This document shows, piece after piece, positions 26,441-50,557 of a stretch of DNA of 64,000 nucleotides (positions are counted from its first letter, which is position 1; each line of letters opens with the position of its first letter). The notes under the pieces are model-generated. The model made no database searches. It saw only the letters and a list, made by a program, of their open reading frames with translations, and had not been told where the DNA came from. This stretch comes from a virus. The stretch spans positions 1-64,000 of IMG/VR virus record IMGVR_UViG_3300028416_000009; one strand, given 5' to 3'. The position numbers and the translations under genes were made by a program.

Positions 26441-28300
26441 TTAAACTTCTTCGTAATCGACATCTTGTGTCCCCTCATCAGGTCCACCACTATCACCTGT
26501 TTCACCTGTTTGATATAGTCTCGTGGTTATTTGATTCCACACACCCTCAAGTTCAGATTTCTTACTCGTGATAAGTTCTAAGTTTTCTGAAGTCTTAGCT
26601 TCATTAAGTTCTCCTATTAACTTCTCTAAGTTTGTTTTTTCATCTTCAGAGATTTTGTCACCTAACTCAGACATTTGTTTCTCTGTTGTAAACACATACG
26701 AATCGGCTTCATTAATAAGTTTAATCTTTTCTTCCTTCTTTTTATCCTCTTCTCTATTTTGTTCTGCCTCGTCTTTCATCTTTTGGATGTCTGCGTCAGA
26801 TAAACCTGTTGAGGATTCAATCTTAATCTTTTGTTCTTTACCGGTTCCTTTATCTTTAGCCGAAACATTTAAAATACCATTGGCGTCAATATCAAAAGTT
26901 ACTTCTACCTGTGGGATACCTCTTGGTGCCATTGGAATACTTTCTAATTTGAATTTACCTAATGTTCTGTTATTTGTGGCCATTGGTCTTTCACCTTGTA
27001 AAACGTGTATTTCTACTACCGTTTGATTGTCGATTGCCGTTGAGAACGTCTGTGACTTATTAGTGGGGATTGTTGTATTTGATTCAATCAATTTTGTCAT
27101 AACACCACCCATTGTTTCAATACCTAATGAAAGTGGAGTAACATCCAATAATAATACATCTGTAACGTCTCCTGATAATACACCTCCCTGAATCGATGCA
27201 CCCATTGCAACAACCTCATCAGGGTTTACCCCTTTATTTGGTTCTTTACCGAATAACTTCTTAACCGCATCCTGTACTGCTGGTATACGAGTTGAACCTC
27301 CTACTAAGATTACCTCATCAATCTCACCAATTGTTAGGTTCGCATCTGACAATGCTTTTTCACAAGGTTTGATTGAACGGTCAACTAAATTAGATGTTAA
27401 TCTATCAAAGTCTGCTCTGGTTAATGTAGTCTCAAAGTGAATTGGTCCACTAGCACCTGCAGAAATATAAGGTAAACTAATAGAGGTTTGATTTGCCGTT
27501 GATAATTCCACCTTAGCTTTCTCAGCCGCCTCTCTAACTCTTTGAATCGCCATTGGGTCTTCAGAAATATCTACGTTTGATTGAATCTCGATTAGAGACA
27601 TAAAGTGGTCGATAATTGCTTCATCGAAGTTATCCCCACCTAATTGTGTATCACCGTTAGTAGATAATACCTCAAAGATACCATCACCTAATTCTAAAAT
27701 AGATACATCAAATGTACCACCACCTAAGTCAAAGACAACGACCTTCATGTCTTTATCTTTCTTATCCAATCCGTACGCCAACGCAGCTGCCGTTGGTTCG
27801 TTAATTATACGTAAGACCTTTAATCCTGCGATTTCACCAGCTTCTTTAGTTGCTTGACGTTGTGAATCGTTAAAATAAGCTGGTACCGTAATAACCGCCT
27901 CAGTAACAGACTCACCTAAAAACGATTCGGCGCTTTTACGAATGTTTTGTAAGACCATTGCTGAAATCTCTTGAGGTACGTAGTCTCTACCATTTGCGGT
28001 TATAACAACAGAGTCGTTATTTCCCTTTTTAATTTTATATGCGACGTTTTTATGGTCGTCATTTAACTCACTATATCTCTGACCGATAAATCTTTTAGCC
28101 GAGTATATGGTGTTTAAAGGATTTGTAACGGAAACTCTTTTTGCGGTGTTTCCTACTTTAATATCGCCATCCTTAAACGATACAATTGAAGGGGTAGTCC
28201 TACCTCCCTCATTATTTACAATAACTTTAGGTTCTCCACCCTCCATAAAAGAGATACATGAGTTTGTTGTTCCTAAGTCAATACCAATTACTTTTCCCAT
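26441..28300 (-). CDS. dnaK: Hsp70 chaperone DnaK
   Basis: 619 residues, full length. [15 protein letters not shown], the phosphate-2 loop [28 protein letters not shown], the linker [19 protein letters not shown], and a complete substrate-binding domain and lid are present. It ends DVDYEEV, like bacterial DnaK. All ATPase motifs look intact. DnaJ and GrpE are not encoded in the window, so host co-chaperones are presumably used. It is divergent from clpC and has a host-type promoter, which suggests early expression. Very close to bacterial DnaK in appearance, consistent with acquisition from a host. Confidence 0.97.
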
Positions 28301-28586: not shown

Positions 28587-30617
28587 ATGGATACAGAATT
28601 CGAAGAACAAGGAGGAGGTAGAAGACTTCCAATGAAGAAAAGTAAAAACGATTCGAGAACACCCGTGTTGGATAATTTCTCTCGTGATTTAATTAAATTA
28701 GCAGAGCAAGGAAAACTTGACCCTGTAATTGGTAGAGAGAAAGAGATTAATAGAATCGCACAGATTTTATCTCGTCGTAAAAAGAATAACCCGATTGTTA
28801 TTGGTGAACCTGGTTCAGGTAAAACCGCAATCGTGGAAGGGTTAGCAATAAAAATACACCAAGGAGACTGTCCTAAGAACTTAGCGGATAAACGTATAGT
28901 TTCATTAGACTTAACTTCTGTTGTTGCGGGTACTAAATACCGTGGACAGTTTGAGGAGAGACTTAAGGCTATTTTAGAAGAGTTGGTTGATAATGATAAT
29001 GTAGTGGTCTTTATTGATGAGATACATACCATCATTGGAACTGGTAACTCTTCAGGTTCATTAGATGCTTCGAACATCATTAAACCCGCACTGTCTCGTG
29101 GTGAAATACAATGTATTGGTGCCACTACGTTAGACGAGTATCGTGAGAATATTGAAAAAGACGGAGCATTAGAAAGACGTTTCCAAAAAGTATTGGTTGA
29201 CCCTGCGACAACTGAGGAAACAATGATTATCCTTTCTAATATCAAATCTAAATACGAGAATCATCATAAGGTTAAGTATAGCGAAGAATCATTAGAGGCT
29301 TGTGTTACCTTATCGGACAGATACATTACTGACCGTGAATTACCTGACAAGGCTATCGATATCTTAGATGAGGTAGGTGCAAAGGCGCAAATCGATGTTA
29401 AATTACCTGAATTTATCGAAGACCTTAAATTACAAGTTGCTGAGATTAAGAGAAAGAAATTGGATGTGGTTAAGACACAAAACTATGAAATAGCTGCTGA
29501 ACTAAGAGACCAAGAAAAGAAGTTAATTAATAAGTTAACAACTGAGAAAGAGGAGTGGGAACAAAAACAAAACGAAAACAGAACTTTAATTACTGAAGAC
29601 GATGTTTATAAAATTGTTTCAGATATGACTAATATTCCTGTAACTCGTTTAGACAGTGACGAAGCTAAGTCATTACTTAATTTAGAAAAAACCTTAAAGG
29701 CTAACGTAATCGGACAAGATGACGCAGTTACTAAGATTTCTAAAGCAATTCGTAGAAATCGTGTAGGTATTAAGGAACCAAACAGACCAATCGGTTCTTT
29801 CATATTCTTAGGTTCGACAGGTGTAGGTAAAACACACTTAGCTAAAACATTAGCACGTGAAATCTTTGGTGATGAATCGGCAATGATTCGTGTGGACATG
29901 TCAGAGTTAATGGAAAAACACTCAGTATCAAGATTAGTAGGGTCTCCTCCAGGATACGTAGGACACGACGAAGGTGGTCAATTAACCGAACAAGTTAAAA
30001 ACAAACCTTACTCTGTAATACTTTTCGATGAGATTGAGAAAGCGCATAGAGATGTCTTTAATATCTTACTTCAAGTATTAGATGAGGGTCACTTAACAGA
30101 TGGTTTAGGTCGTAAGATTAACTTTAAAAATACTTTAATTATTATGACTTCTAATGTTGGAGCAAGAAAACTACAAGACTTCGGAACGGGGTTAGGATTT
30201 AGTACAGACTCTACAGTTTCACAACACGAAGAACTCACTAAAGGTGTAATTCAAAAAGCACTAAAGGCAGAATTCTCACCTGAATTCCTAAACCGTTTAG
30301 ATGATATTGTCGTATTCAAAGCTTTAGAGAAAGAAAACATTGGTAAAATCGTAAAGATTGAAATGAATAAACTCTCAAAGAGAATTGTAGAAAGAGGTTA
30401 CAACATTAGTTTTGGACCATCAATCATCGACTTTATCGCAGACAAAGGGTTTGACGCCAAATACGGAGCAAGACCAATACGTAGAGCGATTCAGGAATAC
30501 ATAGAAGACTTTATCGCTGAGGAAGTATTAGGTAAAGGTATTGTTGAGGGGAAGAGTTACTCCCTTAAAATAAATAAGGATTCTGAAAAAATTTCAGTAA
30601 CAGAAAAAAAATCATAA
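28587..30617 (+). CDS. clpC: ClpC-type AAA+ unfoldase lacking the N-terminal domain
   Basis: 676 residues against about 810-860 for complete ClpC. The tandem Clp-N repeats are missing: residue 30 already begins the FSRDLIKLAEQG linker. D1 has Walker A GEPGSGKT (73-80) and Walker B VFIDE. A UVR-like NYEIAAELRDQE (about 299-310) replaces the long ClpB middle domain. D2 has GSTGVGKT (409-416), VILFDE, and a GLGF segment (535-538) at the position of the ClpP-docking loop. It should unfold proteins and could feed host ClpP, but without N-domain adaptors. Divergent from dnaK. Confidence 0.92.
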   Translation: MDTEFEEQGGGRRLPMKKSKNDSRTPVLDNFSRDLIKLAEQGKLDPVIGREKEINRIAQILSRRKKNNPIVIGEPGSGKTAIVEGLAIKIHQGDCPKNLADKRIVSLDLTSVVAGTKYRGQFEERLKAILEELVDNDNVVVFIDEIHTIIGTGNSSGSLDASNIIKPALSRGEIQCIGATTLDEYRENIEKDGALERRFQKVLVDPATTEETMIILSNIKSKYENHHKVKYSEESLEACVTLSDRYITDRELPDKAIDILDEVGAKAQIDVKLPEFIEDLKLQVAEIKRKKLDVVKTQNYEIAAELRDQEKKLINKLTTEKEEWEQKQNENRTLITEDDVYKIVSDMTNIPVTRLDSDEAKSLLNLEKTLKANVIGQDDAVTKISKAIRRNRVGIKEPNRPIGSFIFLGSTGVGKTHLAKTLAREIFGDESAMIRVDMSELMEKHSVSRLVGSPPGYVGHDEGGQLTEQVKNKPYSVILFDEIEKAHRDVFNILLQVLDEGHLTDGLGRKINFKNTLIIMTSNVGARKLQDFGTGLGFSTDSTVSQHEELTKGVIQKALKAEFSPEFLNRLDDIVVFKALEKENIGKIVKIEMNKLSKRIVERGYNISFGPSIIDFIADKGFDAKYGARPIRRAIQEYIEDFIAEEVLGKGIVEGKSYSLKINKDSEKISVTEKKS

Positions 30618-30671: not shown

Positions 30672-31721
30672 ATGAACGAACAAAGGTTAAATAGGTTTAA
30701 AAAACTACTTTCAGTACCAAGTAAGTCAAGAAATGAGTCTCAGATGGTTAACTTCATCTGTACTCAACTTGACAATATGATTGACAGTGGGGTTAATCTC
30801 GATTACTACTTAGACGAACTTAGTAACATTTATGTGACTAAAGGAGAGTCTGAATCGTACCCGTGTTTTATCTCACACACTGACACGGTACACGAAATAG
30901 ACTCCATCAACGTAGTTGAAGGGATTAAAACTAAACCTAACACTTTCGGTAAGTCATTTGGTAACGAAGAATTCGATGTTCTTTACGCAGTTAACGACCA
31001 AGGAAATCCTACGGGTATTGGTGGTGACGACAAATCAGGGATTTTTATTTGTTTAGAAATCCTTCGTAACGTCCAAGAGTGTAAATTAGCTTTCTTTGTT
31101 TCTGAAGAAATTGGTTGTATAGGGTCATCAAACGCAGATGTCGAGTTTTTTAACGATGTAACATTTGTTTGTGAGTATGACGCACCTGGAGACCACTTAA
31201 TTACCGAGATTTGTTCGGGAGTTCGTTTGTATGAAGTAAACGGTGAATTTATCAACACAATGAAACCAATCATCGAAAATTCCTTTGGTAACCCGATGAT
31301 TGAACAATCACACCCTTTTACCGACGTGATGCAACTTAAAAACAAGTTACCTGTGTCGTGTATCAATATCTCATGTGGATATTATAACATGCACAGTGTG
31401 AATGAATTTATTGCACTGGTAGACGTAGAAAAAGCGATTGACTGTGGTATTAGTATGACTATGTATGGTTTACAGGATAAATATTACTATGAAAATGACA
31501 CACCTAAATATTTTAACGATTCTAAAGAGGATGTTTACGAATCTGAAAACTCTAAATGGTTAAGTGAAGGTGTTGTAATATTTGATGAGGATTCATCGGG
31601 AATTACGATTGAGGAATACGAAACAGGAAACTGTGTCTACCTAACAGAGAAAGAATGTAAGAAATTATATGAAACTCTAAAGTCGAAATTCACACCCTCG
31701 TCACAGTACCGTTTATTTTAA
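30672..31721 (+). CDS. M20-family-like metallopeptidase
   Basis: 349 residues. Di-zinc layout of M20/M28 enzymes: CFISHTDTVHE (His about 70, Asp 72), GIGGDDKSG (bridging Asp), FFVSEEIGCIGS (catalytic Glu pair), CEYDAPGD, and late MHSVNE (His). Signal peptide absent, so cytoplasmic. Close to tripeptidase-type M20 enzymes in motif order. It may recycle peptides produced by ClpC or the phage proteases (inference). Ends at a bidirectional terminator. Confidence 0.85.
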   Translation: MNEQRLNRFKKLLSVPSKSRNESQMVNFICTQLDNMIDSGVNLDYYLDELSNIYVTKGESESYPCFISHTDTVHEIDSINVVEGIKTKPNTFGKSFGNEEFDVLYAVNDQGNPTGIGGDDKSGIFICLEILRNVQECKLAFFVSEEIGCIGSSNADVEFFNDVTFVCEYDAPGDHLITEICSGVRLYEVNGEFINTMKPIIENSFGNPMIEQSHPFTDVMQLKNKLPVSCINISCGYYNMHSVNEFIALVDVEKAIDCGISMTMYGLQDKYYYENDTPKYFNDSKEDVYESENSKWLSEGVVIFDEDSSGITIEEYETGNCVYLTEKECKKLYETLKSKFTPSSQYRLF

Positions 31722-40651: not shown

Positions 40652-40767
40652 GTAGAGTTAGTCAAATGGTACGACGCTCCAACCTTAAGACCGAAATCAT
40701 CATACTAGTTACACGATGCGATTAAGTTGGTTAGGCAGAAGTAGGGGTTCGACCCCCCTACTCTACA
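40652..40767 (+). tRNA. Anomalous tRNA-like gene with enlarged anticodon loop
   Basis: 116 bases. Acceptor GTAGAGT/ACTCTAC is perfect, the D-arm GTC..GAC with AAATGGTAC loop is normal, and the T-arm AGGGG-TTCGACC-CCCCT is perfect, discriminator A. The anticodon stem CCAAC (40679-40683)/GTTGG (40726-40730) encloses 42 bases instead of 7. The extra sequence can form its own hairpin (AATCATC with GAT..GATT). Possible intron of about 35 bases, a defective tRNA, or a tRNA mimic. Identity after removal could be Leu(TAA), Ile(TAT) or Lys(TTT); not decidable. Confidence 0.6.
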
Positions 40768-49217: not shown

Positions 49218-49739
49218 ATGAAAAGTAGTTTTAATCAATTCATACAAAAAACCTACGATGGTAGAGTAATAGACCCATCATATGTTCGATTCAGAGGTAT
49301 GAAATCAATAGTAATAAATGTGGCATCAGAATGTGGGTACACGGATACTAACTATAAAGATATTTTTGAATTCGCAACCAAAATGAAAGACAAGGTATCG
49401 ATATACCTATACCCTTCGAATGACTTTGGAGGTCAAGAACCTAAAAGTGAAGAAGAAATCGCTAAGTTCTGTGATAAGTATGGAGTCTTAGATTTATATC
49501 CTACGGTTAAACTAATGAATAAAATATCGGTTAAAGATAGTGAGTTATTTCAATACTTACAATATGACAACAACTTAACACAAGAAGGGGTTAATTGTGA
49601 AGTAACATGGAATTTTCAAAAGTTTTTAATTAATACTGACGGTAGTTTGTGGGGATATTTATACCCTGAAGAATCATTAACAAACCAAAAAAACATTGAG
49701 GAATGGTGTAATAATATGGAAATAATTAAAGATTATTAA
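49218..49739 (+). CDS. Glutathione peroxidase-like enzyme
   Basis: 173 residues, typical for bacterial GPx. VINVASECGYTDTNY holds the peroxidatic Cys39, FGGQEP gives Gln73, and TWNFQKFLI gives Trp131 and Asn132, so the catalytic tetrad is complete. Cys replaces the animal selenocysteine. It would reduce peroxides with thioredoxin or glutathione in the cytoplasm. No signal peptide. Cotranscribed with its neighbours; a plausible auxiliary gene protecting replication from oxidative stress. Confidence 0.92.
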   Translation: MKSSFNQFIQKTYDGRVIDPSYVRFRGMKSIVINVASECGYTDTNYKDIFEFATKMKDKVSIYLYPSNDFGGQEPKSEEEIAKFCDKYGVLDLYPTVKLMNKISVKDSELFQYLQYDNNLTQEGVNCEVTWNFQKFLINTDGSLWGYLYPEESLTNQKNIEEWCNNMEIIKDY

Positions 49740-49926: not shown

Positions 49927-50099
49927 TGGAAAATATGTTTTTTGAATCCTTAAAAAAAGAATACTTTGTTTTAGTCGAATCTCGTGAAGAGGCACTATTT
50001 TTAGGTGACCACGATAAAATTAAAACAGTTGAAAGAATTATGGGTCATATATGGTCTTTGTTAAAAGAAGATTATTATAAAGACCCGGAGATAGTTTAA
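49926..50099 (+). CDS. Small hypothetical protein before tmRNA
   Basis: 57 residues using ATG 49926 that overlaps the upstream stop (TAATGG); the open frame extends further but would overlap the whole membrane-protein gene. Helical, mixed charge (ESLKKEYFVLVESREEA). Ends 5 bases before the tmRNA, so both may be on one transcript. Confidence 0.65.
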   Translation: MENMFFESLKKEYFVLVESREEALFLGDHDKIKTVERIMGHIWSLLKEDYYKDPEIV

Positions 50100-50104
50100 T
50101 TAAT

Positions 50105-50521
50105 GGGGGTGACTTGGAATTGATTGGCAGGGTCAGTTATACGGGGCACGTAGTGAGATGTTTCCTATCACTTTAATCTACGGTGACAATTTTTTTAGAC
50201 GGCAACGTTTACAACGAGATGGCAATGTTCGGCTTAGTGGCTGACGAAGCTATCGTTAACGCATAGTTAGACTACGTGTTAACAGTAACCCACTCTAAGA
50301 GTCGGTTACATGGGGTCGGTCAGGACACATAACCTAGCAACAGAAGTCCGCAGTGTGGTAGAGTACGATTAAACCCTAAATTGAATCGTTCATTGGGTGT
50401 TGGTTGCAATGATAAATAATAACCAACAAATTTCGGAGTATTAGAAAATACTGACCTAAACGTGTAGTCCTTTATAGGTGGACTGAACAAGACCCGGGTT
50501 CGAAACCCGGCACCTCCACCA
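50105..50521 (+). ncRNA. ssrA: Transfer-messenger RNA (tmRNA)
   Basis: 417 bases. 5' GGGGGTG pairs with 3' CACCTCC, followed by encoded ACCA. The third pair is G-U, the alanine identity element. The T-arm is CCGGG-TTCGAAA-CCCGG. The tag frame probably resumes at GGC 50201, after TTAGAC, and ends at TAG 50264-50266: 21 codons beginning GNVYNEMA and ending DEAIVNA. Gly start fits Bacteroidota tags, but they are normally short and end in ALAA. tmRNA with SmpB rescues stalled ribosomes; smpB is not in the window. Confidence 0.92.
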
Positions 50522-50528
50522 TTAGATA

Positions 50529-50557
50529 AACCACTCCTTAATCGGGGTGGTTTTTTT
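50529..50557 (+). terminator. Rho-independent terminator after tmRNA
   Basis: AACCACTCC/GGGGTGGTT stem (one T-G pair) with TTAATC loop and seven T, 7 bases past the encoded CCA. Confidence 0.88.

Follow-up and report, generated by a model that had tools for sequence, protein, structure and literature searches.

The one-piece tmRNA (ssrA; Rfam family RF00023) of Bacteroidota, with tags like GENNYALAA, shares with the phage RNA described here a tRNA-like domain with a G3-U70 pair, the pseudoknot PK1, a stop codon, a resume site of the form UAnnn followed by GGC, and a tag that begins with glycine and has a small hydrophobic end. The phage RNA differs in its tag, which is 21 residues long instead of 8-10, ends in IVNA and contains a conserved internal motif, and in the GGAAUUGAU near its 5' end. 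Phages are also known to carry tmRNAs, and the accessible portions of three papers describe them in Bacillus phage G, mycobacteriophages, Melnitz and huge phages, the last of which may carry SmpB as well (PMC4131195, PMC9004378, PMC7162821). As far as those portions go, these RNAs resemble ours in being phage-borne with a tag unlike that of the host, the Melnitz-type tmRNA is permuted, unlike ours, and long tag families, or selection on them, are not described. Bacillus phage G has a tag of 13 residues (AKLNITNNELQVA), compared to 21 here. In a 2025 database of 97,179 tmRNAs, the commonest tag length is 10 aa, and only 79 of the entries come from phages (PMC11915505). The Cellulophaga phages phi38:1, Calle_1 and phi14:2 likewise have a complete tmRNA with a long tag, of 30 and 38 aa, and a Bacteroidota host, but their tags belong to another family. 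Of these three, a tmRNA is annotated only in Calle, where it was counted and its tag left without comment (PMC8776804). In the open-access papers searched, subscription papers being outside reach, we found no description of long conserved phage tags.

Architecture of the window tmRNA and its tag frame

The window, i.e., the whole stretch of DNA that was analysed, comprises 64,000 nt of the IMG/VR record IMGVR_UViG_3300028416_000009, and showed no DNA similarity to INPHARED phages. The features at the tmRNA locus are as follows.

49928..50099, + strand: short ORF, 57 aa from its ATG (sequence; no Pfam match)
50105..50521, + strand: one-piece tmRNA (ssrA) gene, 417 nt (RF00023, 82.5 bits, model 1-374)
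50105..50111, + strand: acceptor stem, 5' strand GGGGGUG (sequence and covariance-model alignment)
50152..50172, + strand: PK1 stem 1, AGUGA 50152-50156 with UCACU 50168-50172 (14 phage sequences)
50159..50188, + strand: PK1 stem 2, UGUUUCC 50159-50165 with GGUGACA 50182-50188 (14 phage sequences)
50201..50266, + strand: tag frame GNVYNEMAMFGLVADEAIVNA and stop UAG (pN/pS 0.27-0.32 in this frame only)
50511..50521, + strand: acceptor stem, 3' strand CACCUCC, discriminator A and CCA (sequence and model alignment)
50528..50557, + strand: intrinsic terminator directly 3' of the tmRNA (hairpin and U tract, -16.5 kcal/mol, z -4.1)

The first-pass annotation had proposed a complete phage tmRNA with all tRNA-like parts, and this was borne out by a full-model match to RF00023 of 82.5 bits (E 1.8e-30), compared to a curated cut-off of 47 bits. 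The alignment is collinear over model positions 1-374, thus the RNA is not of the permuted, two-piece type. The third acceptor pair is the G-U pair required for alanine identity (G3-U70, here G50107-U50515), and the CCA end is encoded in the DNA (50519-50521). The score is below that of host ssrA genes (100-200 bits), and ARAGORN, when run on the window, did not report a tmRNA at 50105-50521, perhaps because of the unusual GGAAUUGAU. As one-piece tmRNAs require, PK1 sits upstream of the resume codon, and its two stems are maintained in 14 related phage sequences: 94.6% of the cells are paired, with 18 compensatory cells, a value reached by none of 500 shuffles, and slid versions pair in 32-58%. 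In stem 1, 100% of the cells are paired and one pair changes between GC and CG; in stem 2, 91% are paired, with double-sided changes in three pairs.

The short ORF at 49928..50099 stops 5 nt before the tmRNA start, and the two are likely co-transcribed. A promoter box of the host type, TAnnTTTG, was looked for just upstream of the window tmRNA and none was found there. Further upstream lies a glutathione-peroxidase-like gene (49218-49739, + strand). Elsewhere in the window, positions 40652-40767 (+ strand) give a 116-nt tRNA-like Rfam match of 40 bits that is absent from the ARAGORN output and is possibly a tRNA with an insertion.

The resume codon GGC at 50201 follows UAGAC, and 21 codons later the frame is closed by UAG (50264-50266), resulting in a tag with glycine first and IVNA at the C-terminus. 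This was the frame originally proposed. A resume codon elsewhere, giving an ALAA-type tag, would have spoken against it, but neither of the remaining frames contains an ALAA-like tag. The tag thus departs from the canonical ssrA form, which is short with an LAA- or AA-like end. The tags of the nearest relatives, GNVYNEMAMFGLVSETAIVNA (L065) and GNVYSEMAVLGLVSDNVAVNA (L044), differ from it mostly by synonymous changes, with a pN/pS in the tag frame of 0.27 against L065 and 0.32 against L044, compared to 1.0-3.6 in the two other frames. Informative pairs from other branches gave tag-frame values of 0.13-0.47, and the pairs L021/L061 and L055/L057 gave about 1; some pairs were uninformative, either having very few differences or being separated by an indel. 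When six separate pairs were pooled, the differences at codon positions 1, 2 and 3 numbered 13, 3 and 28 (28 of 44 at the third position; binomial p 3.8e-5). The 21-codon tag frame is under purifying selection.

Tag families among phage tmRNAs

Scans of IMG/VR, together with cultured phages, yielded at least about 170 phage loci with tags of 21-38 residues, which fall into five families. The scan patterns select this 5' end or tag type, so the proportion of phage tmRNAs with short tags is not measured by these scans. Family A, to which the window belongs, has tags of 21-22 aa, in the forms GNVY..GLVS..VAVA and GETIAKLQAVGLIRTEEVTVA. Family B (FEDAM) has 22-26 aa, with at least 35 unique tags in at least 116 loci, and family C (TRED) 24-30 aa. 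The 24 loci of family C, among which are two uncultured phages of 642 and 635 kb, have 15 unique tags. Family D consists of the Cellulophaga phages phi38:1 (30 aa, GNNTNAVNAQIEANMEAVNAILNLEVAVGV) and phi14:2 (38 aa, GNDTDNTQLKANMTVVHNILNGSDALIGSSVQKLAMVA), whose tags are alike at the lowest p reachable by the similarity test, and family E of L013/L018, with a tag of about 38 aa. A relationship between the window tag and the FEDAM tags (E-AM...AD-A) was considered but, when compared with shuffled tags, fell short of p < 0.02, therefore the two are treated as separate families. A tblastn search with the window tag, a FEDAM tag and a mycobacteriophage tag gave no match, and the FEDAM motif hit nothing among PDB chains beyond a designed protein, which looks like a chance match.

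ARAGORN independently calls a tmRNA in 96 of 152 long-tag loci; at many of them it gives 24-aa tags itself, and at some it chooses another frame. As a check free of this pattern bias, 12 named cultured Bacteroidota phage records were examined. Two of them have a tmRNA that exceeds or comes close to the cut-off, with a long tag in both cases; no tmRNA above it was seen in the other ten, which include Tenacibaculum phage PTm1 and Rhodothermus phage RM378. Long-tag phage tmRNAs are apparently a large, previously undescribed group.

Within these families, the tag ends vary among small hydrophobic residues (AVAA, VAVA, VTVA, IVNA, ATV, ELV) and internal segments are kept: FEDAM[AS]FVG, NEVGTREDLVAAL, and GL[VLI] in family A. 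The segment NEVGTREDLVAAL is constant while the ends of its tags range from LAVA to ATV, ELV and ELA; as the FEDAM and TRED motifs served as search keys, exact invariance is partly by construction. The IVNA end of the window tag is a variant of the V-x-VA of its clade, and terminal Ala is found in the window and in this clade. The earlier reading of a different tail is correct insofar as the end is IVNA and not ALAA, but the change is smaller than it looks, since the terminal Ala and the small hydrophobic end are kept.

Several of these loci have additional features. Group I introns (RF00028, 66-101 bits) split the tmRNA T-loop in the window-type loci L053, L056, L060 and L065, and the L152 tmRNA locus has an intron match as well. 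GOLLD RNA occurs within a few kb of the tmRNA at L060 (6519-6925, - strand) and L056 (1-240, + strand). In L021, L016, L064, L022 and L044, a small conserved Lys/Pro-rich protein starting with M(N/K)KIIAFFKRLFGVK is encoded directly 5' of the tmRNA, with no more than a few bases between its end and the RNA gene; it has no Pfam match. Neither has the MKKIIAFFKRLFG... ORF found 5' of several tmRNAs, which was considered as a partner protein. The tmRNAs of phi38:1 (NC_021796, 26803-27164, - strand) and phi14:2 (NC_021806, 4031-4502, + strand) are both unannotated, and gp041 of phi38:1 is a hypothetical ORF annotated antisense inside the tmRNA.

Hosts and proteolysis genes

All 67 tmRNA tags called in Bacteroidota genomes are 8-10 aa long with an AA end. 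The FEDAM pattern was absent from 395 Bacteroidota genomes, and the 5' pattern, when searched in genome contigs, found a Saprospiraceae ssrA with a short tag, the rest being mostly chance matches. The first-pass description of the window tag as unusually long therefore holds in comparison with hosts, but the tag is not individually aberrant, because all readable phage tmRNAs of this type are long-tagged. The Cellulophaga isolates infect Bacteroidota, and the same is probably true of the uncultured long-tag phages, because TAnnTTTG promoter boxes occur upstream of their tmRNAs (23 of 70 phage tmRNAs have one within 60 nt, and a control stretch gives 3 of 70) and their tags begin with glycine.

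The phage ClpC that had been noted is present in the window as a ClpC-like gene, with two neighbours:

26441..28300, - strand: DnaK, divergent from clpC (PF00012, 836 bits)
28587..30617, + strand: two-domain AAA+ unfoldase resembling ClpC, N domain absent, UVR motif present (Pfam, motif positions)
30672..31721, + strand: M42/PepT-like aminopeptidase beside clpC

In the ClpC-like protein, a candidate reader of the tag, residues 535-538 form a GLGF loop where ClpP would dock. Most phage ClpC-like copies similarly have no N domain but retain the UVR motif and, in the place for ClpP docking, a loop of the G[LV]GF type; the G013/G017 copy (840 aa) has an N domain. The aminopeptidase adjoins clpC in L321 too, where a small UVR-motif protein, McsA-like in outline, is encoded beside the phage clpC (4557-4955, + strand). 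A ClpC-like gene was found in all 11 window-type records tested (the window phage and ten others) and in both related 640-kb phages, compared to one of 34 FEDAM-type records (Fisher p 1e-9 for 13/14 versus 1/34, phylogeny ignored). The suggested link between tag and ClpC thus has indirect support, but it is confounded by descent, as the association can be the shared ancestry of one phage lineage. Moreover, a long tag is conserved in the FEDAM phages too, which almost never have ClpC, so that long tags cannot in general be explained by ClpC.

Five window-type records (G013, G487-G490) also encode ClpP at about 190 bits. Its best match is PRK14514, a model of cellular ClpP (233.6 bits, below the cut-off of that model), and against head-maturation proteases it scores 71 bits. 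No clpP was seen in the window record, a fragment of 92 kb. SmpB is encoded in 7 of 48 long-tag phage records (G013, G017, G465, G469, G483, LR756502 and LR745206; 146-177 bits), among them two of the 11 window-type records. The earlier statement that smpB is absent is true of the 92,107-base record, which is a fragment. The window phage may plausibly use the SmpB of its host, but some of its relatives encode one themselves.

What the extended tag may do

One reading is that the long tag is an ordinary degron read by the host, in which the last residues alone direct degradation, by host ClpXP or else by a tail-specific protease, and the additional residues form a linker that is tolerated. Canonical ssrA degrons are recognised at the C-terminus, every tag read ends in Ala or Val, and many FEDAM tags end in AVAA or ALAA, all of which would fit. 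The internal motifs are, however, better conserved than the ends, with NEVGTREDLVAAL constant where the ends vary, and purifying selection extends across the 21 codons, so that we rate this reading as unlikely. Alternatively, the tag may not serve degradation at all, and spare the peptides, from ClpXP as the first-pass annotation had considered, or relocate them, or be a bioactive peptide, the tmRNA mainly freeing ribosomes and outcompeting host ssrA. The loss of the LAA end in window-type tags, the hydrophobic segments, and the absence of VNA or ATV ends from the 67 host tags are in line with this, but the retained small hydrophobic C-termini and the co-occurring ClpC, ClpP and aminopeptidase suggest proteolysis, which makes it quite improbable.

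The phage RNA could also be a decoy that titrates SmpB or inhibits host trans-translation, an effect demonstrated for a molecule with only the tmRNA domain, like that of phage DS6A (PMC4131195, PMC11915505). An RNA encoded by a phage whose record lacks smpB might suit such a role, but unlike the DS6A type the window RNA has a complete, conserved 21-codon frame under purifying selection, PK1 is maintained by compensatory change, and long-tag phages with their own SmpB exist, hence a decoy appears very improbable. That the RNA is a captured host ssrA in decay, with a read-through tag, would agree with its score of 82 bits versus 100-200 bits for host genes, but is contradicted by the pN/pS result in the tag frame, and frame and structure are conserved in many phages with stable tag families, leaving this reading barely credible.

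The reading we favour, and hold to be rather probable, is ordinary trans-translation that appends a phage-specific extended degron, most plausibly for the phage's own ClpC-like unfoldase. The window tmRNA, by its sequence a standard one-piece RNA, would be charged with alanine and act together with SmpB (that of the host, as far as this record shows) at stalled ribosomes, where translation would switch to the 21-codon tag. In E. coli, the handling of the ssrA tag by SspB and ClpX provides the model of a two-part degron, with a docking segment and a C-terminal signal. The window-type tag has this appearance, with a conserved internal segment (G-L-[VLI] in the window clade) and a small hydrophobic end, although its segment is unrelated in sequence. 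Most likely, the extension would serve for docking and deliver rescued peptides to one particular Clp machine. In the window clade this would most plausibly be the phage ClpC-like unfoldase with phage or host ClpP, and the degradation products would pass to the neighbouring aminopeptidase. A point against reading by ClpC is that the N domain, where known adaptors act, is missing from most of the ClpC-like proteins of these phages. That the tmRNA is transcribed, that it tags peptides, and which protease reads the tag are what we infer from these data. A wider proposition, which we advance tentatively and with more doubt than confidence, is that Bacteroidota phages possess a self-contained system of trans-translation and proteolysis, consisting of a lineage-specific extended-degron tmRNA, in some with SmpB, and their own ClpC-like protein, ClpP and aminopeptidase, in which the internal motif is read by the phage machine and the phage thereby controls, in the course of infection, the choice of peptides to be broken down and reused.

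The long phage tags are candidate new degrons for protein-stability tools and, as cultured Cellulophaga phages carry them, the benefit of a phage-encoded tmRNA to the phage can be tested in a known phage-host pair. Until now, degradation tags were seen as short sequences that vary rather little; the presence of long, conserved and family-specific tags in many phages suggests that viruses re-address the products of ribosome rescue to another fate.
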